Shown: positions 54,562 through 64,000 of the stretch, one piece after another | Layout: every line of letters starts with the position of its first letter | How positions within the stretch are numbered: the stretch's first letter is position 1 | Source of the DNA: Allobosea sp. | Lineage (GTDB): Bacteria > Pseudomonadota > Alphaproteobacteria > Rhizobiales > Beijerinckiaceae | Reading direction: 5' to 3' | DNA: 64,000 bases | NCBI RefSeq assembly: GCF_017308075.1 | Contig: NZ_JAFKFX010000036.1 | Span: 62,001 to 126,000 of the forward strand | Notes under the pieces: generated by a model | What the model saw: the letters and a program-made list of their open reading frames with translations, nothing else | Told to the model about the DNA's origin: nothing | The model's database searches: none | Program-made: the position numbers and the translations under genes

Positions 54562-55356
54562 TCAGTAGCCGGCGCTCTTGCCCGGCGCCGCGCGGAAGGG
54601 CTCGATCGCGGCCCGCAATTGCCGGATCATCAAGCCGACATCCGAGCCCAGCCCGATCATGCCGAACCCCTGTTCTCGGCGCCTGGCGATGTCGTCGGCG
54701 CTCGTGCCGATGACGCCGGAGGCGATGCCGCGCGCGGCCGCCAGCTGCTGCATGCGCAGGATGTCCTCGGCGATGCCCGGTCCTTCCCAGACGGCGAGAT
54801 GGCCGAAGCTCTGCGACAGATCGGAAGGCCCGAAGAAGATCGCCTCCAGCCCCGGGACTGCGAGGATATCGGCGATGTTGCTGGAGGCGTCTGCGGTCTC
54901 GATGACCGGGATCACCATTGTCTCCTCGTTCGACGCTGCGACATAGCTCTCCATCGCCATGCCCCAGCGCAGCGCCCGCTCATGGCCGAGCCCGCGCTTG
55001 CCGGAGGGGGGATAGCGGGCATGGACGAACGCTTCGGCGAGTTCATCGGCCGTGCGGATCAGCGGCAGCAAGACGCCATGGGCGCCGAGATCGAGCGCGC
55101 GCTTGATCGTGTCGACCGAGGCCGTTGGCACGCGCACGATCATGGCGAGATCGCTGCCTTTCGCGGCGCGGAGATGATCGACCACGTCGCGATAGCCGAG
55201 GCTGCCATGCTCCATGTCGACGCAGACCCAGTCGAGGCCGAGCTCGGCGGCGACCTCGGTGACGGTCGCGCTTTCGAGCGTGGCCCAGAGCCCGATCGTC
55301 GATCCGCCGGATTTCAGCTTCCGGCGCAGCGGATTCGAGAAAGACTGTGACGGCAT
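54562..55356 (-). CDS. HpcH/HpaI family aldolase
   Basis: 264-residue class II, metal-dependent aldolase of the 2-keto-3-deoxy acid / citramalate-like superfamily. Family blocks are WVCVDMEHGSLGY, MIVRVPTASVDTIKRALDLG, GVLLPLIRTADEL and FFGPSDLSQSFG. The expected metal Glu and Asp lie in the VIPVIETAD and GPSDLS segments. It is the last gene of the minus-strand cluster, 26 bp after the TRAP large permease gene, and probably makes the final C-C cleavage in the pathway. The exact substrate is unknown. Confidence 0.92.
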   Translation of the reverse strand: MPSQSFSNPLRRKLKSGGSTIGLWATLESATVTEVAAELGLDWVCVDMEHGSLGYRDVVDHLRAAKGSDLAMIVRVPTASVDTIKRALDLGAHGVLLPLIRTADELAEAFVHARYPPSGKRGLGHERALRWGMAMESYVAASNEETMVIPVIETADASSNIADILAVPGLEAIFFGPSDLSQSFGHLAVWEGPGIAEDILRMQQLAAARGIASGVIGTSADDIARRREQGFGMIGLGSDVGLMIRQLRAAIEPFRAAPGKSAGY

Positions 55357-55382: not shown

Positions 55383-56672
55383 CTAATTCAGCAGGAGCCG
55401 CGGCAGGATCAGGGATATTTCCGGGAAGTAGGTGATCAGCAGCAAGGCGACCACCAGCGGCACATAATACGGTGCGACCGCCACCAGTGCCTTGTTGATC
55501 GGCACGTCCGCGACCTTCGCGACGGCGAAGAGCACCATGCCGACCGGAGGGGTCAGCAACCCGATCATCAGGTTCAGCACCATCATGATGCCGAAATGCA
55601 CGGGATCGACGCCGACCGCGACCGCCAGGGGCAGCAGCATCGGCGTGAAGATGGTGATCGCGGCATTGGTCTCCATGAACAGGCCGATCACCAGGAGGAA
55701 GATGTTGATCGCCAGCAGCAGCGTGACCGGAGAGAGATCGAGCCCGCCGACGAGCGCGACCAGTTGCTGCGGGATCTGGGTGAAGACCAGCAGCCAGCCA
55801 TAGAGCGCGGCGGCCGCGAGGATCATCATGATGACGGCCGTCTCGCGCATGGTCTCGCGCAGAACCTGGAACAATTGCGCCAGGGTGATCTCGCGATAGA
55901 CCAGCATGGCGATGACGATCGCGTAGACGGCCGCGATGGCAGCGGCCTCTGTCGGGGTGAAGACGCCGCTCATCATGCCGCCGATGATGATGGCGGGCGT
56001 GAACAGCGGCGGGAGCGCCCTGAAGAAGCTGCGGACCAGCGCCGCGAAGCCAAGCCATTTCTGCGTCGGCAGCTGGCGGCGATGCGCCTGCCACCAGACC
56101 AGCATCATCAGCAGGACGCCCATCAGCAGGCCGGGCAGGATACCGGCGATCAGCAGCGCGGTCGCCGAGACATTGGCGACGACGGCATAGATGATCAGCG
56201 GGATGCTGGGCGGAATGATCGGGCCGATCGTCGCCGAGGCCGCCGTGACGCCGACCGAGAAATCGTCGGGGTAGCCGGCCTGCCGCATCGCCCGGATCTC
56301 GACCTGGCCGACGCCGACCGCGTCAGCGACCGCCGAGCCGGACATGCCGGAAAAGATGATCGAGGCGGCGATGTTGACCTGGCCGAGGCCGCCGCGCATG
56401 TGGCCGGCGATGCGATCGGCGAACTCGTAGATGCGGTCGGTGATGCCGCCGGTATTCATGATCTTGCCGGCCAGGATGAAGAACGGGATCGCCAGCAGTG
56501 GGAAGCTGTTGACGCCATAGACCATGCGCTGGGCCAGGATGGTGTAGGGGATGCCGTTGATGCCGCGCTCCACGAGCGTGACGATCAGCGAGGACAGGCC
56601 GAGCGCGAAGGCTGCGGGAATGCCGATGACGAAGAGAGCGAGCAGGCCGCCGATGAAAAGCGCCAGGATCAT
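55383..56672 (-). CDS. TRAP transporter large permease (DctM type)
   Basis: 429-residue membrane protein with 12-13 hydrophobic segments, the usual DctM length. Signature features: PFFILAGKIMNTGGITDRIY, MSGSAVADAVGVGQVEIRAM, SATIGPIIPPSIPLIIYAVV, GVFTPTEAAAIAAVYA and LTPPVGMVLFAVAKVADVP. Starts at 56672 and overlaps the small permease stop by ATGA. With DctQ and DctP it would import the acid substrate of the cluster using the sodium gradient. Confidence 0.95.
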   Translation of the reverse strand: MILALFIGGLLALFVIGIPAAFALGLSSLIVTLVERGINGIPYTILAQRMVYGVNSFPLLAIPFFILAGKIMNTGGITDRIYEFADRIAGHMRGGLGQVNIAASIIFSGMSGSAVADAVGVGQVEIRAMRQAGYPDDFSVGVTAASATIGPIIPPSIPLIIYAVVANVSATALLIAGILPGLLMGVLLMMLVWWQAHRRQLPTQKWLGFAALVRSFFRALPPLFTPAIIIGGMMSGVFTPTEAAAIAAVYAIVIAMLVYREITLAQLFQVLRETMRETAVIMMILAAAALYGWLLVFTQIPQQLVALVGGLDLSPVTLLLAINIFLLVIGLFMETNAAITIFTPMLLPLAVAVGVDPVHFGIMMVLNLMIGLLTPPVGMVLFAVAKVADVPINKALVAVAPYYVPLVVALLLITYFPEISLILPRLLLN

Positions 56673-57175
56673 GATGTGGTTCCTTTGGCGCGGCCGGCCA
56701 TGTGCATCGCCCGCTCGAACATGTCGAGCAGCAGCAGGAAGGTCATGACGAGCATCGAAATGCCGACGGCTGCGTAGATGTAGCCCGTGCGAAACCAGTC
56801 CATGGTCGCCGTGTAGGTCTCCCAGGTCGCATTGGTCAGCAGCCAGCAGCCATAGGCGACCGAGAGCAGGAACCAGGAGATCAGAAGATCGACGAGCATG
56901 GCCACGGCATCGGCCGAGCGTCCGGAGACATAGCCGTCGATGATGTCGACCCGGATATGCTCGCGATTCATCAGGATGACGACGCCGCCGAAATAGGTGG
57001 TGAGCACGCAGGTGAGGCGTGCCAGCTCCTCCGTCCATTGCAGTGGCGCATTCAGGACATAGCGGAAGAAGACCTGCAGTACCGAAGACGTGATCATGAT
57101 CAGGAATGCAGAAATCGCGAGTGTTTCAAAGACGAGATAGATCGTCCTTCGGATACCTTTTTCCGGGGCCATCAC
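56669..57175 (-). CDS. TRAP transporter small permease (DctQ type)
   Basis: 168-residue protein with four membrane helices, the DctQ size. Typical motifs are VFFRYVLNAPLQWTEELARL and MNREHIRVDIIDGY. Coupled to dctM (ATGA overlap) and 66 bp downstream of the receptor gene. Confidence 0.93.
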   Translation of the reverse strand: MMAPEKGIRRTIYLVFETLAISAFLIMITSSVLQVFFRYVLNAPLQWTEELARLTCVLTTYFGGVVILMNREHIRVDIIDGYVSGRSADAVAMLVDLLISWFLLSVAYGCWLLTNATWETYTATMDWFRTGYIYAAVGISMLVMTFLLLLDMFERAMHMAGRAKGTTS

Positions 57176-57241: not shown

Positions 57242-58219
57242 TCATTTCAGGTATTTGGAGACGGCCTGGACGACGCTCGGTGCCCAGTTCTTCGAGAGTT
57301 CATCGATGGCGGGGCGAGCCTTGGCGATGAAGGGCGCGCGGTCGACCTTGATCGCGGTCATCTTGTTCTTCTCCACTAGCGCGTTGCAGACGCCGTCGAT
57401 CTGCTGCTTGGTGATCTCGTCGCCATATTTGGCGGCATCGACGGCCGAGCTGACGACGGCCTCGCGCAGTGCCGGGCTCAGGCTGTCGAGAAAGCGCGAG
57501 CTGATCGTCCAGTGCCAGACGGCCGGGACATGCGCCGTATAGATCAGGTGCGATTGGACCTCGTAGAGCTTGGCCTGGTTGATGTTGAAGCAGGGATTTT
57601 CCTGCGCCTCGATCACGCCCATCTGCAGGCCGCTGAATACTTCCGGCCAGGCGACGGGCGTCGGCCGGGCGCCGAGCTCGGACCAGACCCGGACCCAGGA
57701 GGGAATTTCCGGCACGCGCAGCTTCAGGCCCTTCAGGTCGTCGGGCGTCTTGATCGGCTTCTTGGCGGACAGGTGGCGGTCGCCGCGGCGGAAGAAGGCC
57801 ACGAGGTCGAGCTTGGCCTTGTCCTTGATGAGCTTCTTGCCTTCGGCACCGGCCGAACTCGCCCAGAACTCGAAGATCTCTTCCGGTCCGGGGAACACGA
57901 AGGGCACGACGGTCGCGGCATAGGGCGGGGCGACGACATTCGGCAGCGTATCGCCGAACAGTGTCATCTGGACTTCGTTCACCGTCAGCTGTTCGAGATT
58001 GTCGCGCTCGCCGCCGAGCACGGCCGAATGGAAGATCTTGACGTTGATCTCGCCCTTGCTGCGCTCCTTGACCAGTTCGACGAACTTGTCGACCGCCTGG
58101 AACTCGGGTCCCGGCGGCGAGGTGTGCATGGCGAAGCTGAGATCGAGGGCCTTTGCCGCCGGGGCGGCAAGCAGCATTCCGAGCACCAGGACAGATGCCG
58201 TCAGCTTGTTCTTGAGCAT
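57242..58219 (-). CDS. TRAP transporter substrate-binding protein (DctP type)
   Basis: 325-residue periplasmic receptor. A signal peptide ends about residue 24 (APAAKA). DctP features: HSAVLGGERDNLEQLTVNEV, the carboxylate-binding Arg in LKGLKLRVPEIP, and TPVAWPEVFSGLQMGVIEAQ followed by ENP. The ligand is not recognisable, but a carboxylate (sugar acid) is expected because of the invariant Arg. First gene of the transporter set, 92 bp after the unknown paralogue gene at 58312. Confidence 0.95.
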   Translation of the reverse strand: MLKNKLTASVLVLGMLLAAPAAKALDLSFAMHTSPPGPEFQAVDKFVELVKERSKGEINVKIFHSAVLGGERDNLEQLTVNEVQMTLFGDTLPNVVAPPYAATVVPFVFPGPEEIFEFWASSAGAEGKKLIKDKAKLDLVAFFRRGDRHLSAKKPIKTPDDLKGLKLRVPEIPSWVRVWSELGARPTPVAWPEVFSGLQMGVIEAQENPCFNINQAKLYEVQSHLIYTAHVPAVWHWTISSRFLDSLSPALREAVVSSAVDAAKYGDEITKQQIDGVCNALVEKNKMTAIKVDRAPFIAKARPAIDELSKNWAPSVVQAVSKYLK

Positions 58220-58311: not shown

Positions 58312-58707
58312 TCATGTGCTGCCGGCGACCTCCGCGGCTTCCTTGACGCTCTGGCCGACCGCGAGGCCCTTCTGCCGCGCGGTATTGCTGACGGCGCTGA
58401 GCACGCCGCTCAGCCAGGCATCCTGCGCGTCCCCGATCCGGGCCGTGTCATGCGAGGTGGTGGCGCAAGCGATGCCCTTGGCGTCGAGCATTGCGAGCGC
58501 GGCACGTCCGGCGCCGGCCTTGCCTCCGCCGGCGTCGCTGAAGACGACCAGATGCGGCGGATGCAGCGCCGCGAAGGCACCCGAGATCAGCCCGCCATGC
58601 GAACCGCAAATGATGATCGCCCCCTTGTCCTGCGGTGCGATCAGCGAGATCGAATCCATCAGCACGACGCGATGGCCGGCGATATCGGCGACGGTCTCGT
58701 TCCTCAT
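58312..58707 (-). CDS. Unrecognised protein, tandem paralogue A (GSHGG family)
   Basis: 131-residue soluble protein of a family I do not recognise. It is homologous to the next gene upstream (58704-59132), with roughly 40 percent identical positions by eye. Shared motifs: RVV-x-x-D(S/T)I near residue 13, GSHGG at 35-39, DAG-x-GK at 58-63, GI-x-x-x-T-x-SHD at 79-87, then W-x-SG. Small-residue-rich loops containing His and Asp suggest an active site or cofactor site. It lies between the dehydrogenase and the TRAP receptor gene and is coupled by ATGA overlap to its paralogue. A heterodimer is plausible. Confidence 0.85.
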   Translation of the reverse strand: MRNETVADIAGHRVVLMDSISLIAPQDKGAIIICGSHGGLISGAFAALHPPHLVVFSDAGGGKAGAGRAALAMLDAKGIACATTSHDTARIGDAQDAWLSGVLSAVSNTARQKGLAVGQSVKEAAEVAGST

Positions 58708-59132
58708 GGCCGGCCTCCGAAGATGCGGCGCACGGCCTGGCCGACCGGCTCGCCGAGTGCGAACCCGGCCTTTTCCGCCAAGGGATTGAGGGCTGACACC
58801 AGGCCCGATTGCCAGGTCTCGAGCGCGTTGCCGATCAGCGCGCTGTCGTGCGAGACGGTGCCGGCGATGATGCCGCGCGCCTCGAGATAGGGCAGCGAGG
58901 CGATGCCGGCATTCTCCTTGCCGATGCCGGCATCGTTGAAGAACACGGCGGCGATCGGTACTTTGCCGGCATATTCGCCGGAGCTGATGCCGCCATGCGA
59001 GCCGGTCATCACCACCTGGCCGGCGTCCTCGGGCTTGAGATGCGCGATCGTATCGACGGCGACGACGCGGCGGCTGCCGACCGTCGCGACGATCTCGCGC
59101 AGCATGACGAAATCGGGCTGTGCGGCGCTCAT
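58704..59132 (-). CDS. Unrecognised protein, tandem paralogue B (GSHGG family)
   Basis: 142-residue soluble protein, the longer partner of the one at 58312-58707. GSHGG is at 44-48, FFNDAGIGKENAG at 64-76, and the SHD triplet at 94-96 followed by IGNALETWQSG. The C-terminus FALGEPVGQAVRRIFG aligns with LAVGQSVKEAAE of paralogue A. Its start overlaps the dehydrogenase stop (ATGA), and its own stop overlaps paralogue A. The fully coupled dehydrogenase-B-A arrangement says the three proteins are needed together. No function is assigned. Confidence 0.85.
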   Translation of the reverse strand: MSAAQPDFVMLREIVATVGSRRVVAVDTIAHLKPEDAGQVVMTGSHGGISSGEYAGKVPIAAVFFNDAGIGKENAGIASLPYLEARGIIAGTVSHDSALIGNALETWQSGLVSALNPLAEKAGFALGEPVGQAVRRIFGGRP

Positions 59133-60037
59133 GACCCGTACTCCCCGCCAAGGCCCGACATTTCCTGCATCAGGAGGGCGAGCGCGGAATTGTCGAGATC
59201 GGCGCGGCCGGTATTCGAAAGCACGCCGTAGAGCTGCTGGATCAGCGCCGTAGCCGGCAGGGCGGTGCCGGTCGCACTGCCGTTCTCCAGTGCCAGCTTC
59301 AGGTCCTTGCGCTGGAGCGTGACGCGAAAGCCGGCGGCGAAATTGCCGTCGAGCACGCGCTGACCGTGTAGGTCGAGCGCCTTGCTCTGGGCGAAGCCGC
59401 CGAGCAGCGCCGAGCGGATCTTGCCCGGGTCGACGCCGTTCTTGCGCGCCAGCGTCATCGCCTCGGCGACCGCCTGAATGTTGATGGCGACCGCGACCTG
59501 GTTGCAGACCTTGCAGACCTGGCCGGCACCGGGCCCGCCGATATGGCTGATGGTCTTGCCCATCGCCTCCAGGACCTTGCGGCAGCGTTCGAGTACCGCG
59601 GCGTCGCCGCCGATCATGATCGACAGCGTCGCGTTCTCGGCGCCCTGATAGCCGCCGCTGACCGGGGCATCGAGCATGGCGACACCCTTCGCCGCCAGCG
59701 TCTCGGCCATGGCCCGGGTTGCCATTGGCGAGATCGAGCTCATATCGATCAGCACGCTGCCCGGCCGCATGGCAGAGGCGAGCCCGCCCTCGCCAAGCAC
59801 GACGGCTTCGACATCCGGCGTGTCGGGCAACATGGTGATGACGATGTCGGCAGCGCCGGCCGCCGCGGTGGAGCCGGCATCGCTCGCGCCTGCCGCGACC
59901 AGTTCGGCCACGGCGGCGCGGTCGAAGTCGTGCACGGCGAGGGGAAAGCCGGCCTTGCGTAGATTGAGCGCCATGCGGCGCCCCATGACGCCGAGGCCGA
60001 TGAAGCCGATCTTCTGCGCTTGGGAGCTGGTCGTCAC
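59129..60037 (-). CDS. Beta-hydroxyacid dehydrogenase (3-hydroxyisobutyrate dehydrogenase-like)
   Basis: 302-residue NAD(P)-dependent dehydrogenase of the 6-phosphogluconate/HIBADH group. Rossmann motif IGFIGLGVMGRRMALNL (residues 10-26), substrate motif MLDAPVSGGYQGAENATLSI, the catalytic Lys region GPGAGQVCKVCNQ, and the C-terminal VTLQRKDLKLAL. GTG 60037 with GAGGGG upstream is chosen; an ATG 13 codons earlier overlaps the SDR gene. Relatives next to DUF1537 kinases (LtnD) oxidise threonate-type acids at C2, so a sugar-acid substrate is likely here. Confidence 0.9.
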   Translation of the reverse strand: MTTSSQAQKIGFIGLGVMGRRMALNLRKAGFPLAVHDFDRAAVAELVAAGASDAGSTAAAGAADIVITMLPDTPDVEAVVLGEGGLASAMRPGSVLIDMSSISPMATRAMAETLAAKGVAMLDAPVSGGYQGAENATLSIMIGGDAAVLERCRKVLEAMGKTISHIGGPGAGQVCKVCNQVAVAINIQAVAEAMTLARKNGVDPGKIRSALLGGFAQSKALDLHGQRVLDGNFAAGFRVTLQRKDLKLALENGSATGTALPATALIQQLYGVLSNTGRADLDNSALALLMQEMSGLGGEYGS

Positions 60038-60047
60038 GGCCCGCCCC

Positions 60048-60842
60048 TCAATGGGTCTTGCAGTGCAGGCCGCCATCGACGCAAAGGTCGATGCCGGTGA
60101 TGTATTTGGATTCGTCCGAGGCCAGGAAGAGCGCGGCGTAGGCGATGTCCCAGCCCTCGCCCATGCGCTTCATCGGCGTCACCTCGGCACGCTTGCGCTG
60201 CATCTCCGTGAAGTCGGTGTAATGCGCCTTCATCGCCTCGTAGATGTGCGGCGTGTCCATCAGACCGGGCAGCACGGTATTCGCCCGGATGCCCTTCTCG
60301 GCATATTGCATCGCAATCGCCCGGGTGAAGTGATTCACCGCCGCCTTCGAAGCGTAATACGAAATATAGTTGAAGTGCATCCAGCGGATCGAGGCCAATG
60401 ACGATATGTTGACGATCGAACCGGAGCCCTGCGCTTCCATGATCGGCAGGACGCATTTGCAGGTGAAGAACATGCTCTTCAGGTTCACGTCCATGACGCG
60501 ATCCCATTGTTCTTCCGTCATATCGACCGGGCCGCCTTCGATATTCATGCCGACATTGTTGTGCAGCACATCGATGCGGCCCCAGGTCGACTTCACGGTG
60601 TCGACGACTTCGCGCACGCGATCGAGATTGACGACATCGGCCTGGAGCGCCAGCGCGGTGCCGCCCTCGCTCTCGATGATCTCCTTGGTGCGCTCGGCGG
60701 CGGCGAGATTGAGGTCGACGCAGGCGACCTTGGCGCCTTCGCGGGCGTAGAGCACGGCAGAGGCCTTGCCGTTGCCCCAGCCCTCGCCCACCGAGCCTGC
60801 GCCGAATACGAGCGCGATCTTGTTCTCCAGGCGCCTAGACAT
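60048..60842 (-). CDS. SDR family oxidoreductase of the catabolic cluster (1)
   Basis: 264-residue classical SDR. The cofactor motif is unusual, GAGSVGEGWGNGKASAVL at about residues 15-32, longer than the standard TGxxxGIG. NNVG lies near 96, and the catalytic Tyr and Lys are in SYYASKAAVNHF. ATG 60842 begins MSRRLENKIALVFG. It lies 36 bp downstream of the RuBisCO-like gene and 10 bp before the dehydrogenase gene. It presumably oxidises a polyol or acid intermediate of the pathway. Confidence 0.9.
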   Translation of the reverse strand: MSRRLENKIALVFGAGSVGEGWGNGKASAVLYAREGAKVACVDLNLAAAERTKEIIESEGGTALALQADVVNLDRVREVVDTVKSTWGRIDVLHNNVGMNIEGGPVDMTEEQWDRVMDVNLKSMFFTCKCVLPIMEAQGSGSIVNISSLASIRWMHFNYISYYASKAAVNHFTRAIAMQYAEKGIRANTVLPGLMDTPHIYEAMKAHYTDFTEMQRKRAEVTPMKRMGEGWDIAYAALFLASDESKYITGIDLCVDGGLHCKTH

Positions 60843-60878: not shown

Positions 60879-62135
60879 TCATTTGGCGTGCCGCTCGAAG
60901 GTCTCGACCGCGCGTTTCAGCGCGGGCATCTCCTTGGCGGCCGTCGCGAGCGGAATGCCGGCGCGTGCCGCTTCCCAGGCGGCGCGCAGCGCACGGGTGC
61001 CGGCGGCGATGCCGTCGGGATGGCCGACGATGCCGCCGCCGCAGGCGTAGATCAGGTCGGTGGTGCGCAGCGCGGCGTAGGTGTCGTGGACCTGGAGCAC
61101 GGTCTGCGCGCTCGACAGCACCGGCATGATGCGCGGATCGGCTTCGTTCAGCGGCGTCAGGCAGGCGCGGGCCGAGGCCAGAACCGATTCGTCGCTCTCG
61201 GCGAACTTGTTGCGCAGGCCGTTGACATGGATGTGGTCGACGCCGGCGAGACGGTGGATGAGCTGGTAGACGCGATAGTCGAAGCCGAGCATCGGCGCGC
61301 GCGAGAACAATGCCCAGCCATTGCGATGGCCATGGATGAAGAGCGGGAACTCGCGGCGCAGCGCCAGCACGGCCGGCGTTCCGACCCAGTTGAGGCTGAG
61401 CATGGCGCAGTCGCCGCCGGCCTTCAGGATCGCCTCGGCACCGCGGCGCATCTGGTCAAGGTCGCCGGTGATGTTGAAGGCGAACATGATGCGCTTGCCG
61501 GTGCGGTCGGCATGGCGCTCGATTGCGCCCATCACTGCCGCGATGCGCTGCTCCAGCGGGGCGAAGAGCGGGTTCGCGCTGAGTTCGTCATCCTTGATGA
61601 AGTCGATGCCGCCCTCGGCGAACTCCGCGACGACCTGAGCTGTGTCCTCCGGCAGCAGGCCGATGCTCGGCTTGACGATGGTGCCGATGGCTGGAAGCCC
61701 GTCGAGGCGCAGGCGTTCGTGCGTGCCGGCGATGCCGAAGCGCGGGCCGGGAAAGGCGTGGACGAAATCGTCGGGCAGCTCCAGATCGAGGAGGCGGATG
61801 CCGGAGAGCTCGCTCAACTCGCCGAGATTGCCGCAGATCGTCGCCATCAGGGTCTGCAGATCCGGCCCGACATTGGCATAGGGCCAGGCGATCTCGACGC
61901 GCGCCTGCGTGTAGCGCGCCCGGCCGGAGGCCCGCGCGCCCGGCAGGCTCGGTACGGGGACCTCGGCCAGGCGTTCGATCCTTGCGACGCGGGCGCCGGC
62001 CCGCGCCGTCACCGCATCGGTCTCGGAGGCGAGCTTCATGAAGGTGCCGGTCGATTGCTCGCTGGCGATGGCGGCGGCCGTCTGCTCGACGGGCAGCGGC
62101 GTCTCGATCAGGTAATGGGCGCGAATCTCGGTCAT
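60879..62135 (-). CDS. RuBisCO-like protein (RLP, form IV)
   Basis: 418-residue homologue of the RuBisCO large chain. The carbamylation site is kept: GGIDFIKDDE with Lys181, Asp183 and Glu184 (equivalents of Lys201, Asp203, Glu204). Lys155 in TIVKPSIGL equals Lys175, but the Lys177 equivalent is Ser157. His270-Arg271 (HGHR), His303 (DHIHVNG) and loop-6 Lys310 are present, and GGGIVGHP binds phosphate. This pattern is not a CO2-fixing enzyme; RLPs beside DUF1537 kinases have been shown to be 3-oxo-isoapionate-4-phosphate decarboxylases or transcarboxylase/hydrolases in D-apiose breakdown. ATG 62135 is chosen over a frame open to 62180. The precise reaction here is inferred, not shown. Confidence 0.88.
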   Translation of the reverse strand: MTEIRAHYLIETPLPVEQTAAAIASEQSTGTFMKLASETDAVTARAGARVARIERLAEVPVPSLPGARASGRARYTQARVEIAWPYANVGPDLQTLMATICGNLGELSELSGIRLLDLELPDDFVHAFPGPRFGIAGTHERLRLDGLPAIGTIVKPSIGLLPEDTAQVVAEFAEGGIDFIKDDELSANPLFAPLEQRIAAVMGAIERHADRTGKRIMFAFNITGDLDQMRRGAEAILKAGGDCAMLSLNWVGTPAVLALRREFPLFIHGHRNGWALFSRAPMLGFDYRVYQLIHRLAGVDHIHVNGLRNKFAESDESVLASARACLTPLNEADPRIMPVLSSAQTVLQVHDTYAALRTTDLIYACGGGIVGHPDGIAAGTRALRAAWEAARAGIPLATAAKEMPALKRAVETFERHAK

Positions 62136-62147
62136 GATATTGATATG

Positions 62148-62160
62148 AGGTATGATGTCT
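62148..62160. promoter_or_regulatory. 13-bp repeated element, copy 1 (upstream of the RLP gene)
   Basis: AGGTATGATGTCT, identical to the copy at 62993-63005. It lies 13 bp upstream of the RLP start codon, between the SDR stop and the RLP gene. A probable binding site for the cluster's GntR/FCD regulator. Confidence 0.55.
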
Positions 62161-62176
62161 CTGGTGCGATGAAGGC

Positions 62177-62938
62177 TCACGGTTCCATGACGTCGCCGCC
62201 GCTCACCACCAGCGTGTGGCCGGTGATGAAGGCGGCGCGCTCGGAGAGCAGGAAGGCGACGCTCTCGGCGATCTCGGCCGGCTGGCCGAAGCGTCCCAGC
62301 GGCATCGCCGCGAGCCGCGTCGGCAGCAGGGTCTGGTCGAGGCGACCGAGCATGTCGGTGTCGGTGAGCCCTGGCGCGACGGCGTTCACCCGCACATGCG
62401 GCGCCAGCGCCTCGGCGAAGCAGCGCATCATCGCGACGACCCCGGCCTTGGCGGCGGAATAGTCGATCTGGCGCGAGCGCGGTCGCAGTGCCGCGATCGA
62501 GCTCAGGCAGACAATGCTGCCGAAGCCCTGCGCCAGCATCTGGTCCTTGACCTGCTGGATGGCGATGAAGACCCCGTCGAGATTGACGCGAACCGTTTCG
62601 CGGAACTGGTCGAGCGTCAGTTCGGAGTGGTGGCGCGGGCCGGTGGTGCCGGCATTGGCGACGAGATAGGAGATCGGCCCCAGCCGTTCATTTGCGGCGT
62701 TCACGGCTGCGGCAAAGGCGGCCTCGTCGCCGACATCGGCCTGGAACAGCTCGCAGATGCCGCCCGCCGCCTCCACCATCGCTTTGGTCTCGGCTGCGGC
62801 CGCATGATTGGCGGCGTAGTTGAGCGCGATCTTCGCGCCACCCGCTGCGAGCCGCAGGCAGCAGGCACGGCCGATGCCTCGCGCTCCACCGGTGACCAAG
62901 GCAAGCCGACCGGCAAATTCCGGCGCGATCTCCGTCAT
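62177..62938 (-). CDS. SDR family oxidoreductase of the catabolic cluster (2)
   Basis: 253-residue classical SDR: cofactor motif TGGARGIG near residue 16, ANAG near 92, and catalytic YSAAK in the segment IDYSAAKAGVVAMM. The C-terminus GHTLVVSGGDVMEP is typical. It is the first gene of the minus-strand transcript, facing the GntR gene across a 139-bp control region, and is followed by the RLP gene. Probably a sugar-acid or polyol dehydrogenase. Confidence 0.9.
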   Translation of the reverse strand: MTEIAPEFAGRLALVTGGARGIGRACCLRLAAGGAKIALNYAANHAAAAETKAMVEAAGGICELFQADVGDEAAFAAAVNAANERLGPISYLVANAGTTGPRHHSELTLDQFRETVRVNLDGVFIAIQQVKDQMLAQGFGSIVCLSSIAALRPRSRQIDYSAAKAGVVAMMRCFAEALAPHVRVNAVAPGLTDTDMLGRLDQTLLPTRLAAMPLGRFGQPAEIAESVAFLLSERAAFITGHTLVVSGGDVMEP

Positions 62939-63077: not shown

Positions 63078-63842
63078 ATGGACGCCGGAACAGGCCGCCA
63101 GGACATGATGAACGGCAGGGGCAAGAAGCAGCTCAGCCGCCTCGAACTCGTCCTCGAACACATCAAGCAGCGCATCGCCGACGGCTCGCTCAGGCCGGGC
63201 GACCAGCTGCCGCCGGAGCTGGAACTGGCGCGGGAGCTGGGCTTGAGCCGCACGCCGGTGCGTGAGGCGGTCAAGGTGCTCGCGGCGGCCGGCGTCCTGA
63301 TCGTGAAGCACGGCCACGGCACCTTCGTCAGCGCCGGCGCCCAGGCTTCCCTCGGCCAGCTTCTGCTGTTCGAGATCTACATGAAAGATACGACGCCGCA
63401 GAAGCTGATGGAGGTGCGGCTGCTCTTCGAGCGCGCCTGCGCCGAACTCGCCGCTCAGCGACGGACCGAGGCGGATCTCGCGGAGATGCGTGCCTGTATC
63501 GAGCGGCTGCGCCCGCTCGCCGGCGCCGATCCGATCGATTTCGACGCGACGGTCGAGGCCGACCTCGCCTTCCACCGCGCGATCTACCGCGCCGCCAAGA
63601 ACGAGCTGGTTGAGACGCTGGCGAACTTCGTGCTGACCATGGTCTCGGGCTGGCTGCGCCGCTCGCACGCCCATGGCGGGCTCGCCGACACGGTGCGGCT
63701 GCACGAGATCATGTACACGATGATCGAGACGCGCAATTCCGGCGGCGCGCGCGAGGCCTATGGCGCCGAGGTCAATATGGAGCATTTCCGCAGGATTCTC
63801 GAGCAGATGGGAGCCCGAGAGGACGAGGCTGATCGCGGATGA
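63078..63842 (+). CDS. GntR family regulator with FCD domain (cluster regulator)
   Basis: 254-residue FadR-subfamily regulator. Winged helix: VLEHIKQRIADGSLRPGDQL, ELELARELGLSRTPVREAVK, and VLIVKHGHGTFVS. The FCD ligand domain (about residues 105-235) has the metal-binding His/Asp pattern in EVRLLFERACAELAAQR, DLAFHRAIYRAAKN and LHEIMYTMIETRN. ATG 63078 follows GCAGGTGAGACC. Divergent from the SDR-RLP-dehydrogenase-TRAP transcript and overlapping the kinase gene by ATGA, so it should repress both arms until a pathway acid is present. Confidence 0.92.
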   Translation: MDAGTGRQDMMNGRGKKQLSRLELVLEHIKQRIADGSLRPGDQLPPELELARELGLSRTPVREAVKVLAAAGVLIVKHGHGTFVSAGAQASLGQLLLFEIYMKDTTPQKLMEVRLLFERACAELAAQRRTEADLAEMRACIERLRPLAGADPIDFDATVEADLAFHRAIYRAAKNELVETLANFVLTMVSGWLRRSHAHGGLADTVRLHEIMYTMIETRNSGGAREAYGAEVNMEHFRRILEQMGAREDEADRG

Positions 63843-64000
63843 GCGGGCCGGCCATCTGCTTCTACGGCGACGATTTCACCGGCGCCTCCGAGAACCTCGC
63901 GCAGTTCCACAAGCACGGCCTGCGCTGCCGGCTCTACTTCGAGCCTGCCGATCCGCAGCGTGTCCGCGCCGAGGCGGCGGAGCTCGATGTCATCGGCATC
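63839..64000 (+). CDS. DUF1537-type four-carbon acid sugar kinase, 5' part only
   Basis: Only the first 54 codons are in the window. MSGPAICFYGDDFTGASENL is the N-terminal signature (DDFTGA) of the DUF1537 kinase family, which phosphorylates 3-oxo-tetronates or 3-oxo-isoapionate in acid-sugar catabolism. The start overlaps the GntR stop by four bases. The full protein should be about 400 residues. It connects the cluster to phosphorylated 3-keto acid chemistry, which is what RLP and HpcH aldolase partners need. Confidence 0.85.
   Translation, partial: MSGPAICFYGDDFTGASENLAQFHKHGLRCRLYFEPADPQRVRAEAAELDVIGI

Follow-up and report, generated by a model that had tools for sequence, protein, structure and literature searches.

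A split gene pair in an Allobosea TRAP-transporter operon and its mostly fused homologues

Results

Two overlapping paralogous genes lie between dehydrogenase and transporter genes

We analysed a window of 64,000 nucleotides from Allobosea sp. (the whole stretch of DNA under study; contig NZ_JAFKFX010000036.1, positions 62,001 to 126,000). Towards its end, two short genes, here called A and B, lie in the following neighbourhood; fractions out of five give the split-pair loci, described below, in which a neighbouring gene recurs.

54562..55356, minus strand: HpcH/HpaI-type aldolase (264 aa, start inferred); 3/5
55383..56672, minus strand: TRAP transporter DctM (429 aa; start inferred within a longer mechanical ORF); 5/5
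56669..57175, minus strand: TRAP transporter DctQ; 5/5
57242..58219, minus strand: TRAP substrate-binding protein DctP; 5/5
58312..58707, minus strand: gene B (131 aa); equivalents of D27, H46, D67, H95 and R99 present, Ser in place of Asn116
58704..58707, minus strand: ATGA stop/start overlap of A and B, read in the sequence; also found in other pairs
58704..59132, minus strand: gene A (142 aa); D27, H46, D67, H95 and N116 present, Leu in place of Arg99
59129..60076, minus strand: 6PGDH-type (NAD_binding_2/NAD_binding_11) hydroxyacid dehydrogenase; 4/5, not Stella
60048..60842, minus strand: short-chain dehydrogenase (SDR), just upstream of the pair in 5/5
60879..62180, minus strand: RuBisCO-like protein (RLP), nearest OiaX (439.5 bits, cut-off 700); 4/5
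62177..62938, minus strand: second SDR dehydrogenase; 4/5
63090..63842, plus strand: GntR/FCD regulator, divergent (scanned part; start not settled)
63839..64000, plus strand: start of a DUF1537-type kinase (SBD_N/NBD_C), continuing past the window end

Comparison of the two products by BLASTP gave 55 identical residues out of 124 (44%) without a gap, and at an E value of 2e-35 the likeness is not due to chance. The initial annotation had described A and B as tandem paralogues that align nearly end to end, with ATGA overlaps coupling them to one another and to the dehydrogenase. This was borne out in the sequence, where the overlaps occupy positions 58704-58707 and 59129-59132, the latter shared by A and the dehydrogenase ORF (59129-60076). 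The A/B overlap points to translational coupling of the two genes.

Five distinct complete split pairs are known: those of the window, G763, G990, Stella vacuolata (L012) and a Bosea metagenome-assembled genome (MAG, L013); the pair of G789 is identical to that of L013 and was counted once. Stop and start codons of A and B overlap in all five, by four bases in Stella, the Bosea MAG and G763 as in the window, and as ATGCTGA in G990. The 16.4 kb Stella locus lacks the 6PGDH-type dehydrogenase gene: in the segment 7205-8417, A directly follows the SDR gene, starting 4 bases past the SDR match. Coupling of A to the dehydrogenase is therefore not general, and the Stella operon works, or differs, without a 6PGDH-type dehydrogenase.

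The neighbourhoods of the split pairs were compared with the window proteins as queries, the window being one of the five loci. All five share one gene order: SDR, A, B, DctP, DctQ, DctM. The RLP, the second SDR, the GntR regulator and the DUF1537 kinase accompany four pairs, and none of these genes lies within the ~19 kb locus of the G990 pair, whose genome has an RLP on another contig. Since the SDR and TRAP genes occur at every split-pair locus, they are the firmest partners of A and B. Of the expectation that such pairs sit beside TRAP and RLP genes, the TRAP part holds in 5/5 loci and the RLP part in 4/5, failing within the ~19 kb around G990.

The best NCBIfam match of the 59129..60076 dehydrogenase is tartronate semialdehyde reductase, at 333 bits below the cut-off of 340.75. 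Neither the window RLP nor the kinase (best match OiaK, 216.2 bits, its sequence incomplete at the locus end) reaches the equivalog cut-off of 700 for the 3-oxo-isoapionate proteins OiaX and OiaK; at the haloarchaeal locus L015, too, both RLP (511.7 bits) and kinase (447.8 bits) lie below it. Pfam and NCBIfam revealed no isomerase among the window proteins scanned.

Most homologues of A and B are fused

A and B gave no match over cut-off in Pfam, NCBIfam or PHROGs, and searches of the PDB by sequence gave no credible match for A, B or the fused protein of L104. The earlier statement that no family can be named for the pair thus stands for these four libraries. Searching with A recovered the split pairs of Stella and the Bosea MAG; a Flammeovirgaceae MAG (L014) yielded a homologue with one domain. 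Among plasmids, 13 of 72,556 records matched the family; the nine examined all encode a two-domain protein of 227-317 aa annotated 'hypothetical protein', in haloarchaea, Rhodococcus, Rhizobium, Aminobacter, Ponticoccus and Methylovirgula. A 29-row domain profile was positive in 47/385 genomes of Alphaproteobacteria, 33/367 of the order and 6/67 of the genus, and the family also occurs outside Alphaproteobacteria, in haloarchaea, Rhodococcus and Bacteroidota. No family match was found in 50,697 phage records, and none of 53 pattern stretches from a search of viral contigs was confirmed as family. One further match (G329/L008, E 6.9e-4, with an internal stop) was judged to be chance.

Across 64 family loci, both domains lie in one ORF at 54, the nine plasmid loci included, a single domain is present at seven, and two ORFs are present at three, at one of which (L056) the second copy is merely a fragment. 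Within the genus, three of the six positive genomes carry a split pair and three the fused form. At L056 (G729:C155), an intact single-domain gene lies close to a second copy reduced to a C-terminal fragment, followed by an HpcH aldolase gene; this locus looks like a decayed tandem duplicate. By eye, the fused homologue of Aminobacter (L021:6422-7375) begins with a Tat/Sec-like signal (MNRRIFLGSSALLAVSLL...AQA), which suggests an exported family member.

In a 68-row tree, from which the most divergent and near-duplicate loci were excluded, N-halves and C-halves of the fused proteins separate with supports of 85 and 88; on this grouping, most fused forms look like the outcome of one old fusion event. 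The labels separate nearly but not fully in a 122-row tree (4 and 3 changes). A and B fall among the single-domain rows of this quick tree (SH-aLRT 87, not starred). In approximately unbiased (AU) tests, grouping A with the N-halves was not rejected (p 0.54 and 0.47), nor was grouping B with the C-halves (p 0.80), so the pair is compatible both with the split of a fused gene and with the duplication of a single gene.

The initial annotation had proposed that the adjacent duplicates form a heteromer. Two-domain fusion at 54 of 64 loci is strong evidence for this, and the reciprocal residue loss described below adds to it: A and B are probably the subunits of a heterodimer. Might they instead be redundant or dosage-balanced duplicates, each forming a homodimer? 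The single-domain homologues at 7/64 loci indicate that one domain suffices for function, presumably in a homodimer. We nevertheless regard this explanation of the pair as highly improbable, given that fused two-domain homologues dominate and that A and B have lost different conserved residues while both remain under purifying selection among close relatives.

Split pairs have lost two conserved residues reciprocally

We measured conservation against a background of 118 domains from outside the pairs (54 N-halves, 54 C-halves and 10 singles). Retention was 115 for S45, 112 for H46, 113 for D67, 106 for R99, 116 for N116 and 118 for G110, so that each of H46, D67, R99 and N116 is conserved per domain. 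The motifs that had been noted as common to A and B fared unevenly against this background. GSHGG and DAG are shared family-wide, and their His (112/118) and Asp (113/118) remain catalytic-looking, as first suggested. The Asp of SHD (Asp96) and the Lys of DAGxGK vary across the family, and of W-x-SG, Gly110 alone reaches a conservation of at least 75%. Neither the SHD Asp nor the W-x-SG Trp is supported as a family-wide catalytic residue. The His of SHD (H95) is present in 8/8 single-domain proteins counted, 10/10 paired proteins, 25/54 N-halves and 2/54 C-halves. None of the columns with at least 75% conservation is a Cys.

Divergent fused members on two Rhodococcus plasmids (L018, L023) carry Tyr for H46 in the N-half and Glu or Pro for R99, and their genes adjoin genes for an AMP-ligase, a thiolase and an enoyl-CoA hydratase. 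Going by these replacements, the two proteins perhaps have a changed or non-catalytic role.

The split pairs depart from the background in a reciprocal manner. Arg99 is lost from A in all five (Leu in the window, G763, Stella and Bosea, Val in G990) and present in B in all five. Asn116 is present in A in all five and lost from B in four (Ser in the window, Gly in the others), being retained in the B protein of G990. In the window pair, R99 and N116 are therefore present in trans only, A lacking the former and B the latter. Among columns at least 75% conserved, just two positions are lost from A in 5/5 pairs, Arg99 and Ser28, the latter conservatively replaced by Thr. Other drift comprises Asp102 of A, near Arg99 (lost in 4/5), Val93 (4/5) and Leu80 (3/5) of B, and Asn66, which is Ser in window B alone. 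Residue 117 in the four B proteins without N116 is N, N, D and E; these B proteins could compensate by a one-residue shift of a helix cap via this position.

Were R99 and N116 both essential within one chain, neither window A nor window B could work. The most economical reading of the reciprocal loss is one composite site with a dead mirror site, and we judge a composite active site at the A/B interface to be slightly favoured. In G990, A lacks R99 and B has both residues, and the loss in A could thus have come first, releasing N116 of B. Such a state would be the expected intermediate if each site draws N116 and R99 from different chains. Two facts bear on the weight of this pattern: R99 is also missing from 12 of the 118 background domains and may not be essential, and the five split-pair loci are related, so the reciprocal loss represents few independent events.

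Substitution rates indicate that A and B are both under purifying selection among close relatives. Comparing the window with Bosea L013 gave dN and dS of 0.075 and 0.517 for A, and of 0.086 and 0.487 for B; within the set of Bosea-type pairs (window, L013 and G763) the dN/dS ratio is 0.15-0.17 for A and 0.14-0.21 for B. Against Stella the window gave 0.33 (A) and 0.26 (B). Its comparison with the distant G990 gave much higher ratios of 0.85 for A and 0.54 for B; the synonymous estimate is possibly saturated there.

The same residues could be read as a catalyst with a pseudo-enzyme partner, A holding the active site (H46, D67, H95, N116), Arg99 being structural, and B serving as an inactive scaffold or allosteric subunit. 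N116 is indeed more invariant than R99 in the background (116/118 against 106/118), and it is present in A in every pair and lost from B in four of five. B, however, has H46, D67, H95 and R99 in all five pairs, and its dN/dS among the Bosea-type pairs resembles that of A, a constraint beyond the needs of a scaffold. Moreover, the complete residue set in G990 sits in B rather than A. We consider a catalyst with an inactive partner somewhat unlikely.

Family genes lie among genes for organic- and sugar-acid breakdown

The initial annotation had asked whether homologues always occur as pairs beside TRAP/RLP genes. They do not: adjacent pairs are rare, with the five complete loci above, and an RLP gene is present at few family loci. 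We took raw counts within five genes, on either strand, at 63 family loci, with the identities of neighbour clusters drawn from Pfam matches of their representatives. The mechanical gene calls missed or over-extended some genes (the RLP in L017, the SDR in L012), and with counts that are approximate and tend to be low, an E1-beta-like protein was found at 24 loci, an acetolactate-synthase-like thiamine diphosphate (TPP) enzyme at 18 and an SDR at 16. TPP-type enzymes of any kind are the commonest neighbours (28/63). Neighbouring genes are often divergent to the family gene, so co-transcription is not implied. Clusters of E1-alpha/E1-beta, an acetolactate-synthase-like TPP enzyme and TRAP DctPQM recur next to fused family genes in L103, L076, L077, L079, L082, L101 and others, several of them with an IclR regulator.

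RLP genes were found at 5/63 loci by clustering, with one more annotated in L017. Loci with both an RLP and a DUF1537 kinase are L012, L013, L015, L016 and L104, to which annotation and tblastn add L017; all six of the 63 loci with a DUF1537 kinase also have an RLP. The RLP is one of several contexts of the family, and family-linked RLPs do not form one clade. The idea that an RLP needs this family was rejected: RLPs 47-53% identical to that of the window occur without it (L132-L135), and 10 of 12 RLP matches in eight genomes lie away from the family locus. One such RLP, OiaX-like and 47% identical to the window RLP, is encoded on another contig of the window's own genome (G000:C30:31997-33247; L132:9486-10763), adjoining another DUF1537 kinase, TRAP genes and, by eye, a VOC-like protein; the A/B family is absent there. 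Overall, the neighbours of the family are organic- or sugar-acid enzymes, and the common denominator of its contexts is the uptake and breakdown of hydroxy and oxo acids.

Profile searches give one distant signal

The matches of 29 family domains to named families were weak. Exceptions over cut-off among relatives are IMS in L018 and L021 and DUF1805 in L021. The IMS (Y-family polymerase, PF00817) match passes the gathering cut-off over ~30 of 148 positions, in a helix motif, and is probably a false positive. A match of one member to SpoVAE (Pfam, E 0.016) was set aside as chance, as were weak PDB matches to ketol-acid reductoisomerase (the best, E 0.0097 over 26 residues) and glycerol dehydratase reactivase (E 0.25). 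Short, weak PDB matches to RecA, DepH and DNA polymerase IV were likewise rejected.

DUF1805 (PF08827) matched 11 of the 29 family domains, with a best E value of 9.6e-4; A and B had no match to it at E values up to 1. Of eight relatives, only that of Aminobacter (L021, 31.7 bits) passes its gathering cut-off of 29.5 bits. Aligned with hhalign, the family and DUF1805 gave a probability of 66-67% over just 34 C-terminal columns, and 4% in global alignment. The other 14 families compared, RpiB and 13 neighbour clusters, gave probabilities of 0.1-3.8%; RpiB/LacAB, represented by 20 RpiB sequences, found no support at 0.4%, and neither A nor B had a Pfam match to LacAB_rpiB (PF02502). On these profile comparisons we do not assign A and B to DUF1805 or to RpiB/LacAB.

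DUF1805, as the sole distant profile signal, bears on whether the family is catalytic at all. Its members are small proteins, some encoded between PAS and histidine-kinase genes, and the family studied here accompanies many different pathways, as a helper would. A and B might then form a non-catalytic metabolite-binding sensor, a carrier or a chaperone module for neighbouring enzymes, perhaps related to DUF1805. Against this, the hhalign support is limited to 34 C-terminal columns, a similar helix motif triggers the presumably false IMS matches in two members, and the conserved His, Asp, Arg and Asn appear catalytic. A non-catalytic role is in our view unlikely, and a small-molecule enzyme is the probable identity of the A/B pair.

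At four of five betaproteobacterial plasmid loci examined, the DUF1805 gene is flanked by a PAS gene on one side and a histidine-kinase or ATP-binding gene on the other; at the fifth a transposase replaces PAS. The plasmids of L112-L115 are typed conjugative (three) or mobilizable (one), and their DUF1805 arrangement is possibly an unstudied signalling module.

Discussion

We propose that the usual form of this family is one polypeptide with two homologous domains of ~130 residues, probably alpha/beta. Each dimer of domains would have two pseudo-equivalent sites at the domain interface, built with residues from both domains: Ser45-His46 (GSHGG), Asp67 (DAG), Arg99 (SARIG) and Asn116 (SxxN). 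In a split pair, a single composite site would be left, to which A supplies Asn116 and B supplies Arg99; its mirror image, formed by position 99 of A and position 116 of B, would have decayed. The substrate of the enzyme would be an imported acid of the hydroxy- or oxo-carboxylic kind, and the surrounding SDR/TRAP operon in most cases encodes a DUF1537 kinase, an RLP and a 6PGDH-type dehydrogenase as well. Taken whole, as an obligate heterodimeric enzyme with one surviving composite site and a role in an acid operon, this is our best explanation, and we see it as evenly balanced between right and wrong.

As to the reaction, sugar-acid pathways offer a model. In the L-threonate pathway, a 2-oxo-tetronate isomerase acts between a dehydrogenase and a 3-oxo-tetronate kinase and decarboxylase (PMC12540250). 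In D-apiose breakdown, a single enzyme, D-apionate oxidoisomerase, precedes the kinase and decarboxylase (PMC11747546), and the decarboxylases are RLPs (PMC6302742). By analogy, A and B could fill an isomerase gap in the window operon, in which dehydrogenases, kinase and RLP are present. The most likely reaction would be an acid-base isomerisation in which a sugar-derived oxo acid has its carbonyl shifted between C2 and C3; it would give the kinase and decarboxylase a 3-oxo acid and, in other operons, the TPP enzymes a 2-oxo acid.

A further 6PGDH-like gene (cluster c49) accompanies the fused protein in the haloarchaeal loci L015 and L017 and the bacterial L104, and belongs to PF16896 in L015 and L017, the two scanned. 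In these two loci it may, we presume, be ApnO, the D-apionate oxidoisomerase; NCBIfam named no oxidoisomerase for c49 genes. Because this gene coexists with the family in L015, L017 and L104, and Stella lacks the 6PGDH-type dehydrogenase, we hold an oxo-acid isomerase to be a doubtful identification of the A/B reaction. The loci with an OiaX-close RLP and without the family (L132-L135), one of them in the window's own genome, also count against it.

On a more far-reaching reading, A and B would be the split version of an enzyme from a new, widespread superfamily that has no named relative and a catalytic apparatus of its own, and for which a pseudo-symmetric fused dimer is the usual form. The site would have been partitioned stepwise, A losing its Arg first (the G990 state) and B then its Asn (Bosea and Stella), and the enzyme would be a mover of carbonyls. 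We consider this extended reading improbable. If it were true, a carbonyl moved along oxo-acids would feed RuBisCO-like decarboxylases or thiamine-dependent enzymes.

About one in eight sampled alphaproteobacterial genomes (47/385), and some archaea and actinobacteria, thus encode a conserved catabolic protein that is nameless in the libraries searched. The reaction of the family may be a missing step in organic- or sugar-acid degradation beside RuBisCO-like and TPP enzymes. The reciprocal loss of Arg99 and Asn116 in split pairs is a new result. With single, fused and split forms in one family, and two stages of reciprocal active-site decay in the split form, the series is a natural test of how obligate heteromers become locked in.

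Our literature search on apionate/apiose, DUF1805, RLPs and tetronate isomerases, which covered titles and the starts of abstracts, mostly outside subscription journals, turned up no description of the family. Several known systems invite comparison. Proteins of the DUF1805/YunC/Ta1206 group (PF08827, PDB 1qw2) share with the family a C-terminal helix-turn pattern, DM..G/A-V-S..N/A..A..G...GM; the Pfam alignment, below cut-off, covers positions 7-62 (L019) and 9-64 (L020) of 64. Compared with the family, DUF1805 proteins are shorter (about 84-100 aa), and neither GSHGG nor DAG occurs in the ten sequences aligned.

LacA and LacB are tandem paralogues that form a heteromer with sites shared between the subunits. 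LacA/LacB and RpiB (PF02502) resemble A and B, which are probably alpha/beta as well, as subunits of ~140 residues from sugar operons, and the GSHGG-to-ND region of the family resembles the CGTGIG-to-CHD region of RpiB; the family differs in having no conserved Cys column. What A and B are known to share with a LacAB-like heteromer, from sequence alone, is that they are adjacent paralogues, here with fused homologues. OtnI is a larger TIM-barrel protein, and A and B, which match no TIM-barrel or dehydrogenase family, are in this unlike OtnI and ApnO. In Asp/Glu racemase and diaminopimelate epimerase, the active site lies between two homologous half-domains and uses a pair of Cys; the family has no conserved Cys and resembles these pseudo-symmetric racemases and isomerases in its two homologous halves. 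In pathway position, A and B resemble OtnI, the 2-oxo-tetronate isomerase placed between a dehydrogenase and a DUF1537-type kinase and a decarboxylase (PMC12540250), and D-apionate oxidoisomerase, ApnO (PMC11747546).
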